A program made the position numbers and the translations under genes. A stretch of 64,000 bases of DNA from positions 16,050,030-16,114,029 of the forward strand of contig OZ026601.1 in assembly GCA_964020085.1 (NCBI GenBank), read 5' to 3'. Positions 10,030 to 41,769 of this stretch are shown one piece after another; the stretch's first letter is position 1; every line of letters begins with the position of its first letter. This stretch comes from Micromussa lordhowensis. Its lineage: Eukaryota; Cnidaria; Anthozoa; Scleractinia; Lobophylliidae. The notes beneath the pieces are model-generated. The model searched no databases. It worked only from the letters and a program-made list of their open reading frames with translations, and had not been told where the DNA came from.

Positions 10030-10204
10030 TACGGTGGCCCAGAAGGGTCACACATGCAAATTAAAAATGTTGCTGCAAATTAAAAATTTTACCTGCAAAT
10101 TAAAAATGGGTCTGCAAATTAAAAATAGTACATGCAAATGAAAAATTGCACTGGCAAATTAAATATAGTACATGCAAATTAAAAATGAAAAGTCCTGCGC
10201 GCGC
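10030..10204 (+). repeat. Left TIR of the outer element
   Basis: It starts TACGGTGGCCCAGAAGGGTC and then has about eight degenerate copies of TGCAAATTAAAAAT before AAAGTCCTGCGCGCG. Several copies contain the exact octamer ATGCAAAT. A similar motif at 9997-10010 lies just outside the tip, so the array may extend outward. Confidence 0.8.
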
Positions 10205-10262
10205 ATTGGCATCCATAAGGTACTGGGACGAGCTACTGGGGTGAGCCATGAAACCTTGCAAA

Positions 10263-12110
10263 ATGGCGGATGAAAGATCGGTAGTACGGAACTACTTTAA
10301 TCTTGGGTATGAAAATGAGGTCATTTTGCAATTCTTGGTCCACTACCATGGCATTAAAATGAGTTTAAGTACGCTAAAACGTAGGCTCCGAGATTATGGC
10401 TTGAAAAGAAGAGGAAACGAGGTCGATGTTGACCAGTTGAGAGATATAATCAGAAATGAAATCAGTGGTTCTGGTCAAGCACCAGGTTACAGAGCAGTGT
10501 GGCACTCTTTGAGGCTAGTACATGGAATTCATGTCCCTCTCCACTTAGTAGCAGCTATTTTACGGGAAATCAACCCAGTGGGAGTTCAGCAGAGAAGAAG
10601 GCGCAGACTCTCTCGGAGGAGATATGTCAGTTACGGTCCAAACTTCTGCTGGCACGTGGATGGTAATTTAATAAAGTTATGTTTATAAGGCTTTTATGCT
10701 ATTGGTAAAGTAATGGCTCTACGATTTGAGCTAACATGCTTCATAGACTTGAGAACGCATATGAGAACGTAGGCTGGCACGGTTTCCCCTAGATCCCAGT
10801 AGCTCAGTTATTACATGCATATAGTGTACTTGTTGTGCTTCATTGCTTAAAGAACGAAGGTGAATGTTCATTTTATTGTGTAAATATTATTATTTAAGCC
10901 ATAGAAAACGTTTTCCATGTTCGTAAGAGGGTTAGGAAAATTCGAGACAGTTATGCAAACATTAGATGAAGTTGAGGCTTTGCATAACTATCAAGAATTC
11001 TCCCAACTTCTCAAGTGTTTATATTAGGTTATTCAAACGCAGGAAAAAAGTTTTCTATTGCTATTTCAAAATAACCTTTCCTGAGAAAAAAGCAAAACTT
11101 TTTATTTATGGCACTGATAAAATAGAAATTCTTACCAGCTGCAAAGTGTTGTACACAAGCTTTGTACAAGTAATCAGTTCTTGTTTTGCAAAAATATGCT
11201 TTGAAGACTGTACAGATTTGTCTCTCTTAAAATGTCAGCTGAATTGAAAAAAAAGATACAGCAGATTTTCTAAGGAGGGAATGGGTAAATAAACTTGTCG
11301 AGTTTTTTTACTTGAAAACTTTTTCAAATTTGTGCTTGTGTTAGTAGCGTGCAAAAAGCAAAAACAACCATGTTAACATGCTCTCATGCAAACACACCCC
11401 TCGGTCAATCAGAGCATGCATACTATGTTAGTTTATATTTTATTAAAGCTACAGTGGGACTGCTATGACAGCTTTTTGCGGTTAAATTGTAAGTTTATTT
11501 GTAACATAGAATAAAGATAGGATAGTGGTGCTGAGGAAATGAGCAAATCAAATAATTTCAAAAGGATATATCACGATTAGCGGGATGACATTTGTTTTTT
11601 ATAGGATTGCCCAAGTATTTAAACTACAAAAAAAAACATAATGGTAAGTTTGTGATGGATACAGATGAACTGCTCAGCCATACTTCCTGTAGAGAAGATG
11701 ATTTAAGAGATGTTTGTAAACTTTTGACATCTTTGTGAATTATGTTTACTTCTTAGGGTATGACAAACTCAAACCCTATGGCCTTCCCATCCATGGTGCT
11801 ATAGACAGATACAGCCGTAAAATTCTCTGGTTGGAGGTGGCAAGATCAAACAGTAAAATGTAGCTAGATTCTATTTAGATTGTGTAAAAGAGAATGGAGG
11901 GTGTCCAATTCTGCTAAGATGTGGAACAGAAAATGGTGTGTTGGCTGGAATGCAATGCTACTTTCGCCAGAATGGTCAAGATGAATTTGCTGGAGAGAAA
12001 GCACATAAGTATGGTTCTTCACCTGCAAACCAGCGAATTTAGGCTTGGTGGTCTCATTTCAGGAGAGGTAGAGCAGGTTGGTGGATCGACTTTTTTAAGG
12101 ACATGGTTGT
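10263..12110 (+). pseudogene. Outer element transposase (rve/DDE integrase core), inactivated
   Basis: Exon 1 (10263-10662, donor GTAATT) encodes a helix-turn-helix-like N-terminus with GIKMSLSTLKRRLRDYGLKR and ends in CWHVDG, the first catalytic Asp block. Exon 2 starts at 11757 (acceptor TTAG) with YDKLKPYGLPIHGAIDRYSR. A frameshift near 11866 moves the frame. The second catalytic Asp expected just before CGTENG is missing. The catalytic Glu of the conserved NQRIE block is replaced by an amber TAG at 12040-12042. I find no later exon. The family is a DNA transposase with a retroviral-integrase fold. The upstream in-frame ATG at 10248 is an alternative start. Confidence 0.8.
10663..11756 (+). 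other. Intron of the outer transposase
   Basis: This 1.1-kb AT-rich stretch is bounded by GTAATT and TTCTTAG at the right phase. No gene is visible in it; ORFs there have random composition. Confidence 0.6.
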
Positions 12111-12515
12111 GACAAGTTGTGTGACTTATTATTAATATCTAACTAAGTACTGCATGAGTTTTGTTATTGTTGATTAGCCAATCAATGTAATTATGTGTGA
12201 TTGCACAACCCAGGTTCTCGAATTACTCAGGTCAGGCCTCGTGGATGTATGTTGTTGATTCGAAGAGTGGCTCCCATTTTTTGCCAACAGTTTTTTTTAC
12301 TTAACTTCAACCAAACATCATTAAGGATGTAACTGACAATAGGCCACTTTTGATGTATTAACATTCAACATGATAGCAACTCTTAGGGGGTGCAAATGGT
12401 AATGTGAACTCTCTATTGTCTATCTGCTGAAATTTACTATGCATGTAATTATTGCAAGTCACCAATTTCTTTAAACCCTGTTACACAAATCTTAAAACTA
12501 ATTCCAATAGCTCAT

Positions 12516-39224: not shown

Positions 39225-39226
39225 TA

Positions 39227-41509
39227 ATGGTGACATGAACTTGGGTGCTGGGCCACCTTGCAATATGGACATAGCCATTGCTTTTCCACATGTTTTAAAG
39301 TCGCCTGCATTCAGAGCCACTGTAGAGTTAACAGGTTTCCCATCCTTAAAATATCTTTCCTTTACAATGATTATCAACACTGCAAAAAACAAAACAAATG
39401 AAAATGAATTGAGCAAAAGAAACTCATTTACAAATGCTTCTGCAAAATTTTTTGGTGGGATAAAAATATTATTGCTTTAATTTTGAAAGTGGGGTATTCC
39501 AAGCATAGCTATCTGCCAGGAGACGAGCACATGAGGAACTGACTGAGCTACTCATGTAACACTTTCTACATTCACAAAAAGTGAACAAACATCTCTTACT
39601 TTATTCCCCCCTAGGGGGACTTAACAAATTGTTATACGGGAAGCTGCACCCCAAGATCCAACCCCTTACCCTTTTATATACCATTTTTAACAAAAATGGT
39701 AACCCTTTAGCATACCTTTTATTGACAATCCTGACTTAGATAGATAGATAGATAGTTTAATAAGCAATACATTGCAGCCCAAAGGCTGAATTGCGTATTT
39801 ACATATGATATAACTAATAAAATGTATATAAAAACTAAATACAGTGAAAATGAAAGTATAAAAAAAGATAAAAGGACTAACAAACTACGTATATATATTA
39901 TCTATACAGGATCTAATAATAAAAGTGTTCCTAAAACGATCTGTCTTGCATTTGGGTACGATGATGCGCCTATTGCACCTTAGGGAATAACGTGACGGTC
40001 CACTAAATTGTATTAACCTGTTCAAACGGTGTTCAAGGACTTTTATAATGGTGTCGAAAGTATTACTACGTAGCCTCGTAATGAAATCTACAATAGGGAC
40101 GATGTTCATTAATTCGATAGCCTCCTGGTAGGGCAGACCTGGGCATATTATAGACACTGCCCGCTTCTCAACTCGCACCAACTCGTCTTTTAAGTACTTT
40201 GGCAAGGCATAAAAAAAGACAGGTGCTGCGTAAGTAAGAACAGAGCGTATACAGGCAGTGTAAAAAATGGACATATCATGTCGAGGAACTCTTGATCTTT
40301 TTGACTGCACTAAAAAATAGAGATGCTTTGACGCTGACTTACGTGTATCCTACCTGAAAATAGTTCTCTCTTCGGTCCACCATCATCCACAGCAGGCTCC
40401 CCAGTGAAAACAGCTTTAAGTGATGATTTGGGATCTATTTTAGTCTCCATGGCTGCCTTGAAATCTTGCCAGATAAACTTTCGTCTGACTGTAAGACGCT
40501 TTGTGTTTCATAACAGCAGCTGTCCTGATAATTCACATATTTTACCTTTTAAAGCCCCCTTGTGTTGGTGACCAGTCAACTCCTGCACTGTTGTTGTTTT
40601 CTCAACATCATGGGAAGTACAACCATAACTTTGAATGTCACATCGCTGTTCCTCGTCATCGAGCAACCACATGGAACATTGATCAGCATGCTCTTCAATA
40701 TCTGATAGGGGGAGCAATGAGTGGCATATAGGGCAACTTATCAACCTTTCATTTCCACTTTCCACTTCTTGTGATTCTGATGATGTCACTTGGACCTCTG
40801 TTGCCAATGATGGGCTGCCTTCATTGTCACTGTTTTCGTTGTCGTGAGAACGTATGTGCTGGATTTCGGTGACAAACGCTGGTTCTTCTAAACTTTTTTC
40901 ATCTTCATCATCATCTTCGTATAGGAGATTGTCCAGATAGTCATTCGTAGAACATAAATAAACCGTTATCCTTCCATATGATTTATCGATTTCTTCTCTG
41001 TATCGTAATACAAATTTTTCATCACTTCCTGGAAGAGTTTTCACTTCAGATTTGTCATGGTACAACAGTCTATACCATGATGAAAGCGTGGAAGAAATTA
41101 AGTTGTTGTTAAAGCGGTTATGTTTGTCCACAGCCCTTTCTAGTAAATCCTCAGCATTGATTTTGGGTGATACAGACAGTGGGAGTGTGACGCCACGCTT
41201 CACAGAAAGACCACCATCCTTCATCGTTACAATTCCAACTTGAATTTTAACTTCCTTTTCAACCCTTTCTGGTTCCTTTTTCAGCCTTTTTGCTACAGAT
41301 GGCTTGAAATACTTTGAACGATCGTCTTCCTTCCTCGATCAGAACGCTGCGAAGGTTAAGAGCGTCTTTGATGCTGTCGCCGCCGTCTTTTGTACACCAC
41401 TCGGAGAACCATTCTCCTTATCCGCACTCAAGCTTATCATTTTGCCACATTTATGGCAAAAGATTGCAGCAGTCACACACTTTTCGCCACAGAATGAGCA
41501 AAACATCAT
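39227..41509 (-). pseudogene. Outer HECT ligase, 5' half
   Basis: Exon 1 (41509-40354) starts MMFCSFCGEKCVTAAIFCHK, a zinc ribbon, then a ubiquitin-like region (MKDGGLSVKRGVTLPLSVSP), a UBZ-like C2HC finger (CPICHSLLPLSDIEEHADQC) and the start of the HECT N-lobe (RLTVRRKFIWQDFKAAMETK; FTGEPAVDDGGPKRELFSG). Two in-frame TGA codons lie at 41339-41341 and 40508-40510. Exon 2 (39379-39227) encodes YFKDGKPVNSTVALNAGDFK and CGKAMAMSILQGGPAPKFMS, where the inner element cuts in. The rest is at 12516-14190. A LINE fragment occupies the intron between these two exons. Confidence 0.8.
39735..40318 (-). mobile_element. 5'-truncated LINE fragment (CR1/L2-like reverse transcriptase C-terminus)
   Basis: The minus-strand ORF 40310-39885 contains FYTACIRSVLTYAAPVFFYA and LVRVEKRAVSIICPGLPYQE, the conserved C-terminal end of non-LTR reverse transcriptases of the CR1/L2/Rex type. 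The 3' end finishes in a (TAGA)n tail at 39738-39757, as those families do. Only about 140 residues remain, so it is dead on arrival. Confidence 0.8.
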
Positions 41510-41614
41510 TGCAAAAAGCTAAACTAGCAGGTCTTCCTTTCCCGCCAAACATGGATGAAACGAAGGCTGTACGCCAGGTCGCACGGCTCGAACCAGGTCC
41601 TCATCAGTCATACT

Positions 41615-41769
41615 GCGCGTGCAGGACTTTTCATTTTTAATTTGCATGTACTATTTTTAATTTGCAGCAACATTTTTAATTTGCATGTACTCTTTTTAAT
41701 TTGCAAGTAAAATTTTTTATTTGCAGCAACATTTTTAATTTGCATGTGTGACCCTTCTGGGCCACCGTA
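41615..41769 (-). repeat. Right TIR of the outer element
   Basis: Reverse-complemented it starts TACGGTGGCCCAGAAGGGTC and continues with six or so TGCAAATTAAAAAT units to AAAGTCCTGCACGCGC, matching 10030-10204 with a different number of units. Confidence 0.82.

Follow-up and report, generated by a model that had tools for sequence, protein, structure and literature searches.

In the present work, we analyzed a stretch of 64,000 nucleotides (hereafter, the window; 64 kb) from the coral Micromussa lordhowensis (assembly GCA_964020085.1, contig OZ026601.1, positions 16,050,030 to 16,114,029 of the forward strand). The window harbors two nested transposons, each embedding an integrase-type transposase gene and, convergent to it, a gene predicted to encode a HECT ubiquitin ligase. 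This organization had been proposed in a previous sequence-only reading of the same DNA, and the nesting, the gene pairs, their strands, and the inverted repeats were all retrieved from the sequence of the window. The pairing of transposase and HECT gene is not accidental, since a census of the genome gave counts far above those of random placement. We consider it probable that the two elements are IS3EU-like transposons and that their ligases act on host nuclear proteins so that transposition succeeds.

Nested elements and their genes

The outer element (10030-41769) encloses the inner one (14191-39226). The terminal inverted repeats (TIRs) of the inner element lie at 14191 (+) and 39226 (-), each beginning with TATGAAGTCAGATCC; those of the outer element lie at 10030 (+) and 41769 (-), each beginning with TACGGTGGCCCAGAAGG. 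The TIR arrays of the two elements are unrelated in sequence, as had been claimed; yet all four families whose ends could be read (inner, outer, L023, and L025) have TA as their terminal bases, giving TA..TA termini (L followed by a number designates a locus of this genome).

The inner element interrupts a HECT exon of the outer one: on the minus strand, the outer HECT reading ...GGPAPKFMSP ends at the right inner TIR, and DVASFLVGEPLSPSE... continues past the left inner TIR. The outer family has another copy, L026, which keeps the uninterrupted insertion site GTCACCAGACG and shares with the outer copy of the window an identity of 97-98% over the HECT gene (97.7% over 12272-14190) and of 92-95% over the transposase pieces. 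The inner insertion is flanked by CACCAT on one side and by CACCAG on the other, and the empty site of L026 is CACCAG; this comparison reveals a target-site duplication (TSD) of 6 bp, one copy of which was later substituted. Because the insertion occurred inside an exon, the outer HECT gene is split in two. Hence, the common layout attributed to the two elements stands for the convergent pair between TIRs, but the outer HECT gene is located on both sides of the inner element and not on its right only.

The inner transposase gene consists of four exons with canonical splice sites, which code for 496 residues with no internal stop; its catalytic residues D231, D288, and E325 form a D-56-D-36-E core, and its third intron (17.7 kb) is filled with other elements. 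The protein matches PF24764 and, weakly, helix-turn-helix (HTH) profiles; the profile scan retrieved no match to the integrase zinc finger (HHCC) at E<=0.5. Among the 120 relatives listed out of 2127, the best named ones come from corals and other cnidarians, followed by sponges, hemichordates, a priapulid, and fish.

The inner HECT gene, convergent to the transposase, also has four exons and carries one in-frame stop in exon 2; the exons joined downstream of this stop match PF00632 (E=4e-8, 33.8 bits, the cut-off being 23.9). N-terminal to the HECT domain, the protein has a conserved region of roughly 100 residues, together with a C2HC-like finger and CUE-like helices, the matches of the last two scoring below the curated cut-offs. 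The fold predicted for the conserved N-domain has a low overall confidence (mean predicted local distance difference test score, pLDDT, 67); a structure search with this model gave two matches at E <= 0.001, both of them HECT ligases, and beta-grasp-like chains matched weakly only. Candidate C-lobe cysteine motifs were recognized by eye in both elements (TASTC in the outer, DVCSN in the inner one). In an alignment of 20 rows, the HECT cysteine C417 occupies an invariant column and aligns with the cysteine in the HTCFN motif of a NEDD4-like protein, which we take to be the catalytic one. The conserved cysteine and the HECT fold thus suggest a ligase activity.

The outer copy is decayed, with both genes broken: the transposase has a frame break near 11860 and a stop at 12040-12042, and the HECT gene has a stop in its C-lobe. 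The intron of the N-terminal half of the HECT gene holds a fragment resembling, by eye, a reverse transcriptase (39885-40349). The outer copy has no matching TSD, its 6-bp flanks being GAAATT and CTGCTC. In L026, a further TIR copy is located 196 bp outward, and the flank CCAATTGAAATT beside the inner TIR copy is common to L026 and to the window; the mismatch is due to the truncation of the left end, which lacks the second terminal-repeat copy present in L026. Two tandem TIR copies at the transposase-side end were observed in both the inner element (14191-14682) and the outer family (L026, 5182-5459), and, in the inner element, a stretch of about 18 bp that nearly repeats the right flank lies just ahead of the second copy.

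Recurrence of the gene pair in the genome

The genome (581 Mb) gave 131 PF00632 rows, 129 of which were merged into 91 HECT loci, the other two falling in loci already counted; together with the matches to the L023 HECT protein, 126 HECT loci were used for the census. Transposases were represented by the best 150 PF24764 hits of 900 candidates (inner type) and by 95 loci obtained with the L027 protein as a query (102 of 856 candidates scored; outer type), with no overlap between the two sets. Random placement was simulated in 2000 trials for the inner type, approximating contig extents by the largest coordinate observed.

Within 5 kb, a HECT locus was found for 21 of the 150 inner-type hits (random mean 0.50, maximum 4), 20 of them convergent and one being the inner transposase of the window beside the outer HECT gene. 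The outer-type set gave 22 of 95 loci, without exception in convergent orientation (random mean 1.0, maximum 5). Overall, 43 transposases are paired, about 1.5 being expected, and 42 of the pairs are convergent, the cross-pair of the window being the other one. Of the 126 HECT loci, among which are host genes, 44 lie within 5 kb of a listed transposase. A direct analysis of 20 of the 91 loci by tblastn retrieved a transposase in nine, always 3' of the HECT gene and convergent, and a profile search added a tenth, equally convergent pair (L020). The gene pair therefore recurs across many diverged families; its genes are convergent in every case in which they were recovered as a single unit, and they lie within TIRs in the elements with two ends.

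Two other families provided complete elements, L025 and L023, each enclosing both genes between its TIRs. The L025 element (4,151 bp; TIRs beginning with TATGGCAAGCC; TSD GACTAA) has an open HECT frame and only a remnant of the transposase. The L023 element, which includes L029, is 8,596 bp long and has the TSD GGAAAC; its TIRs, about 845 bp in length, are 85% identical to each other and begin with TACGGAGCCC; its transposase is split over two overlapping frames. In a second copy of the same element (L043, about 98% identity), both genes are open, with a transposase of 393 aa (stop to stop) and HECT exons of 419 and 450 aa, the latter being intact in both copies. All three elements with both ends untruncated show a TSD of 6 bp, exact in L025 and L023 and with five of six bases in the inner element.

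Concerning gene integrity, the ratio of nonsynonymous to synonymous substitution rates (dN/dS) of the HECT exons ranges from 0.24 to 0.71, i.e., below 1, in four comparisons with few changes. The HECT domain of L042 matches PF00632 with 34.8 bits, above the cut-off of 23.9. Open frames of about 395-407 aa were also observed in L010, L012, L025, and further PF00632 matches.

Some observations weigh against a ligase that is a functional and stable partner of the transposase. At 10 kb, the inner-type set gave 23 pairs (20 convergent, two divergent, and one in the same orientation); one match in the same orientation and a second, divergent one depart from the rule. In L010, a weaker transposase piece occurs on the other strand, in addition to the convergent transposase. 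In the L010/L012/L025 family, the N-terminal exons evolve nearly neutrally (dN/dS 0.58 to 0.98), and the short L012 and L025 retain an open HECT frame with transposase pieces only, possibly as ligase-only derivatives. Moreover, no HECT was detected within 5 kb of 129 of the 150 inner-type and 73 of the 95 outer-type hits. PF00632 missed the HECT C-lobes of L034, L035, and L036, three of the eight best PF24764 loci; owing to this insensitive detection, the pairing is undercounted, and the two counts are upper bounds on absence. Even so, among the near full-length outer-type transposases (n=33), a HECT lies within 5 kb of 12 and was not detected for the remaining 21, including L040, whose open transposase frame of 427 aa is followed by 4.2 kb in which no HECT was found and whose open reading frames (ORFs) are kinase-like and Ig-like in appearance. 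The sequence-only reading had held that members lacking the HECT gene would make the pairing accidental; such members do seem to occur, but the pairing is still recurrent. In view of the many transposases without a detected HECT, we regard it as recurrent and not obligatory.

These same hits, and dN/dS estimates based on few changes, would fit HECT genes that are passengers, i.e., host genes picked up a single time and retained although they serve no function. We consider this very improbable, given that the pairs occur in two deep transposase lineages with a single fixed orientation and that open HECT frames of 395-485 aa, with the cysteine conserved, are found in diverged families.

As regards other loci, five similar HECT loci (L014-L018) are spaced by about half a megabase on one contig (C10, 8.98-11.16 Mb), and a sixth (L021) lies on a small contig; no transposase was found in the 10 kb examined of each. 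A transposase-only element in L037 was considered and dropped: L032 and L033 match it over the transposase and TIR side and not over the other side, so that L037 may be a rearranged copy. In other datasets, a comparison of 117 transposase with 101 HECT entries retrieved candidate pairs on contigs of equal length, P0102/P0195 (5,401 bp) and P0103/P0132 (42,620 bp), which are suggestive only; among viral contigs, 73 pattern matches included no confirmed relative.

Apparent exchange of the ligase, its possible target, and G2E3

If each ligase had followed its transposase, the two genes should have diverged together, a test set by the sequence-only reading. The result speaks against it and adds to the unfavorable points listed above: the Mantel correlation is r = 0.10 (p = 0.23) for 12 loci from 11 families (L026 and the outer element representing one family), with HECT distances near saturation and many partial rows. 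The correlation over all 15 loci (r = 0.67) was rejected as evidence of co-divergence, being produced by close copies of the same family. L036, of the inner type, and L023 have transposases 25% identical, belonging to two lineages separated with a support of 100, and HECTs 48% identical; for L027 and L023, the values are 57% and 30%, respectively. In the HECT tree, L036 groups with L023 (support 72), and both fall within a wider clade (99). The gene trees of transposase and HECT are thus in conflict between families, and the simplest reading seems to be that the ligase was swapped between transposase lineages, the arrangement being restored each time.

This bears on the possible target. A ligase exchanged between transposases probably need not recognize its own, which in turn would indicate a host target. 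A ligase regulating its own transposase, by limiting or timing its amount, would account for the fixed convergent position beside it; the missing co-divergence and the apparent exchange between transposases 25% identical make this improbable. The following steps can be depicted for the reading that we prefer, in which the ligase acts on host proteins. The element would be mobilized by its transposase (excision and insertion by cut-and-paste, as suggested by the family of the enzyme); the ligase, made from the opposite strand, would bind its target through the N-terminal modules and transfer ubiquitin through the conserved cysteine; the targets would be host nuclear proteins, most plausibly those of the DNA-damage response, and the outcome would be successful transposition. 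A role in host repair or protein turnover, as previously suggested, may be envisaged on this basis.

The main rival class of targets is represented by silencing factors. The ligase might be a counter-defence factor that marks host silencing proteins for degradation, with an arms race explaining both its fast divergence and its exchange. The HECT identity can be far below that of the transposase between the same families (30% vs. 57% for L027 and L023), the N-terminal exons are near neutral or fast, and the N-terminal parts differ between families; weak constraint, however, could also give fast divergence, and the relative G2E3 points to DNA-damage signaling, not to silencing (PMC12847987). We therefore hold this possibility to be real, yet on the whole unlikely.

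The vertebrate gene G2E3 entered the analysis through the relatives of the L023 HECT, 90 related proteins among 8000 candidates scored; 10 of the 13 named ones (from corals, fish, and echidna) are named G2E3. A tree of 33 HECT domains was built with four host outgroups (NEDD4-like, Rsp5, an E6-AP-like gene, and a second gene of this genome); L012 and L025 were omitted, being close copies of L010, as was any row with under 100 aligned columns. A position beside a transposase is observed for eight rows (inner, outer, L010, L013, L020, L023, L026, and L027) and presumed for the database rows. The HECT of echidna G2E3 (P0220) joins six fish proteins (96) and then the L023 group (98), within the clade of all transposon HECTs (99); some intermediate nodes are weak (34 to 45). 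In the approximately unbiased (AU) test, a tree in which the 21 other non-fish, non-host sequences were constrained to exclude G2E3, the six fish proteins, and the hosts gave p = 0.0097, and the same constraint excluding G2E3 and the hosts only gave p = 0.00046. Echidna G2E3, taken as a host gene, shares with the transposons the grouping of its HECT domain and differs from them in the PHF7-like PHD module in front of it: the PHD part matches PHF7 at 2e-76, and the HECT part matches solved HECTs at 4e-5 or worse. This module was absent from the seven other proteins scanned (of fish, coral, or unnamed source, some of them fragments).

Since its HECT nests among transposon HECTs, G2E3 was likely assembled in part from one of them. 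We lean, by a small measure, toward a scenario in which a transposon lineage carries a HECT ligase and trades it between transposases, vertebrate G2E3 being a PHF7-like PHD gene fused to such a ligase. The opposite direction, in which transposons acquired their HECT from a G2E3-like host gene, draws on the presence of only four host HECTs in the tree, on the dependence of the direction on rooting, and on the weakness of several deep transposon-HECT nodes (31 to 61). G2E3, nevertheless, nests with transposon HECTs on both sides, and the two AU tests argue against an outside position; moreover, in Marin 2010 (PMC2837046), the origin of the G2E3 subfamily is placed after the chordate/echinoderm split, whereas relatives of the transposon HECTs are annotated in corals. 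We therefore judge that direction rather unlikely. A derivation from a transposon ligase would explain the origin of a HECT subfamily that appeared late, and the host gene would provide the first clue to the target of the transposon enzyme. A 2025 review (PMC12847987) reports roles of G2E3 in DNA-damage signaling and embryo survival; because its HECT groups inside those of the transposons, the damage response is the first candidate target.

Features of the window and known systems

Table 1. Features of the outer and inner elements, with positions in the window.
Feature	Position	Strand	Basis
Outer: remnant of the stretch leading to the second, outer terminal-repeat copy; element truncated here	9985..10029	+	flank CCAATTGAAATT common with L026
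Outer: left TIR, ATGCAAATTAAAAAT array, begins TACGGTGGCCC	10030..10233	+	repeat comparison
Outer: transposase remnant (HTH region, integrase core)	10248..12112	+	core read by eye; HTH_21 E=8e-4, below curated cut-off
Outer: HECT C-terminal half (C-lobe, TASTC motif; one C-lobe stop)	12516..14190	-	profile and L026 comparison
Inner: TSD, left copy CTGGTG	14185..14190	+	empty site in L026
Inner: left TIR, TCGTCTCGTC arrays, two tandem copies; near copy of right flank precedes the second	14191..14682	+	repeat comparison
Inner: transposase exon 1	14755..15236	+	canonical splice site
Inner: transposase exon 2, first catalytic D	15596..15826	+	splice-joined reading
Inner: transposase exon 3, second D and E (D-56-D-36-E)	16080..16611	+	PF24764 E=7e-76 for joined protein
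828-aa ORF, tyrosine-recombinase-like by eye, in last transposase intron	18706..21192	-	weak Pfam matches, none above cut-off
BEL/Pao retrotransposon, same last transposase intron	27825..33272	-	Peptidase_A17 E=1e-45
Inner: transposase exon 4 (C-terminus, stop)	34277..34522	+	matches C-terminal part of transposase profile
Inner: HECT exon 4 (C-lobe, DVCSNSLKIP cysteine)	35429..35652	-	exon reading and profile
Inner: HECT exon 3 (most of HECT domain)	35826..36737	-	joined PF00632 E=4e-8
Inner: HECT exon 2 (conserved N-domain, C2HC-like finger, CUE-like helices; one in-frame stop)	37256..38148	-	
Inner: HECT exon 1	38746..38891	-	
Inner: right TIR	38939..39226	-	repeat comparison
Inner: TSD, right copy CACCAT (empty site CACCAG)	39227..39232	-	L026 comparison
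Outer: HECT N-terminal half (zinc-ribbon-like start, C2HC-like finger, HECT start)	39227..41518	-	
Outer: right TIR	41586..41769	-	repeat comparison

The window includes further elements, all recognized by eye on the minus strand: two related ones at 18706-21192 and 55506-57992, in which a tyrosine-recombinase-like ORF comes after a C2H2-like finger region; three ORFs resembling a helicase-type replication protein at 46186-48560; and, at 62588-63916, an ORF of 442 aa with a zinc-ribbon-like start, which looks like a tyrosine recombinase of a second kind.

Among the closest known systems is IS3EU/GingerRoot (PMC10045372), which shares with the present elements an integrase-like DDE transposase with an HTH-like N-terminus and without the HHCC finger, TA..TA ends, and target duplications of 6 bp; the assignment as IS3EU-like rests on this published description. 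The difference is the second gene, the HECT ligase: the paper contains no mention of HECT or ubiquitin. Among the titles and abstract starts listed by the literature searches, none reports a transposon with a HECT ligase, and no open-access paper with both IS3EU and HECT was found, subscription journals and Repbase reports, where the pairing may be noted, lying outside this search; in the part seen of PMC5560861, HECT occurs only in the reference list.

Transposons with OTU or Ulp1 proteases, and the idea of a link with ubiquitin, are already in print. Ginger1 (PMC2836005) resembles the present elements in that its transposase is related to integrases and in its connection with the ubiquitin/SUMO system; a participation of the ubiquitin pathway in transposition was put forward by the authors who described it. 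The Ginger1 transposase possesses a zinc finger and a GPY/F motif; a zinc finger ahead of the DDE core gave no match in the inner transposase. Furthermore, in Ginger1, the modifier-removing OTU or Ulp1 proteases are C-terminal domains of the transposase, whereas the present elements harbor a separate gene for a ligase, which would add the modifier. Being separate and recurrent, this gene makes the idea of a role of ubiquitin in transposition testable by the replacement of one cysteine.

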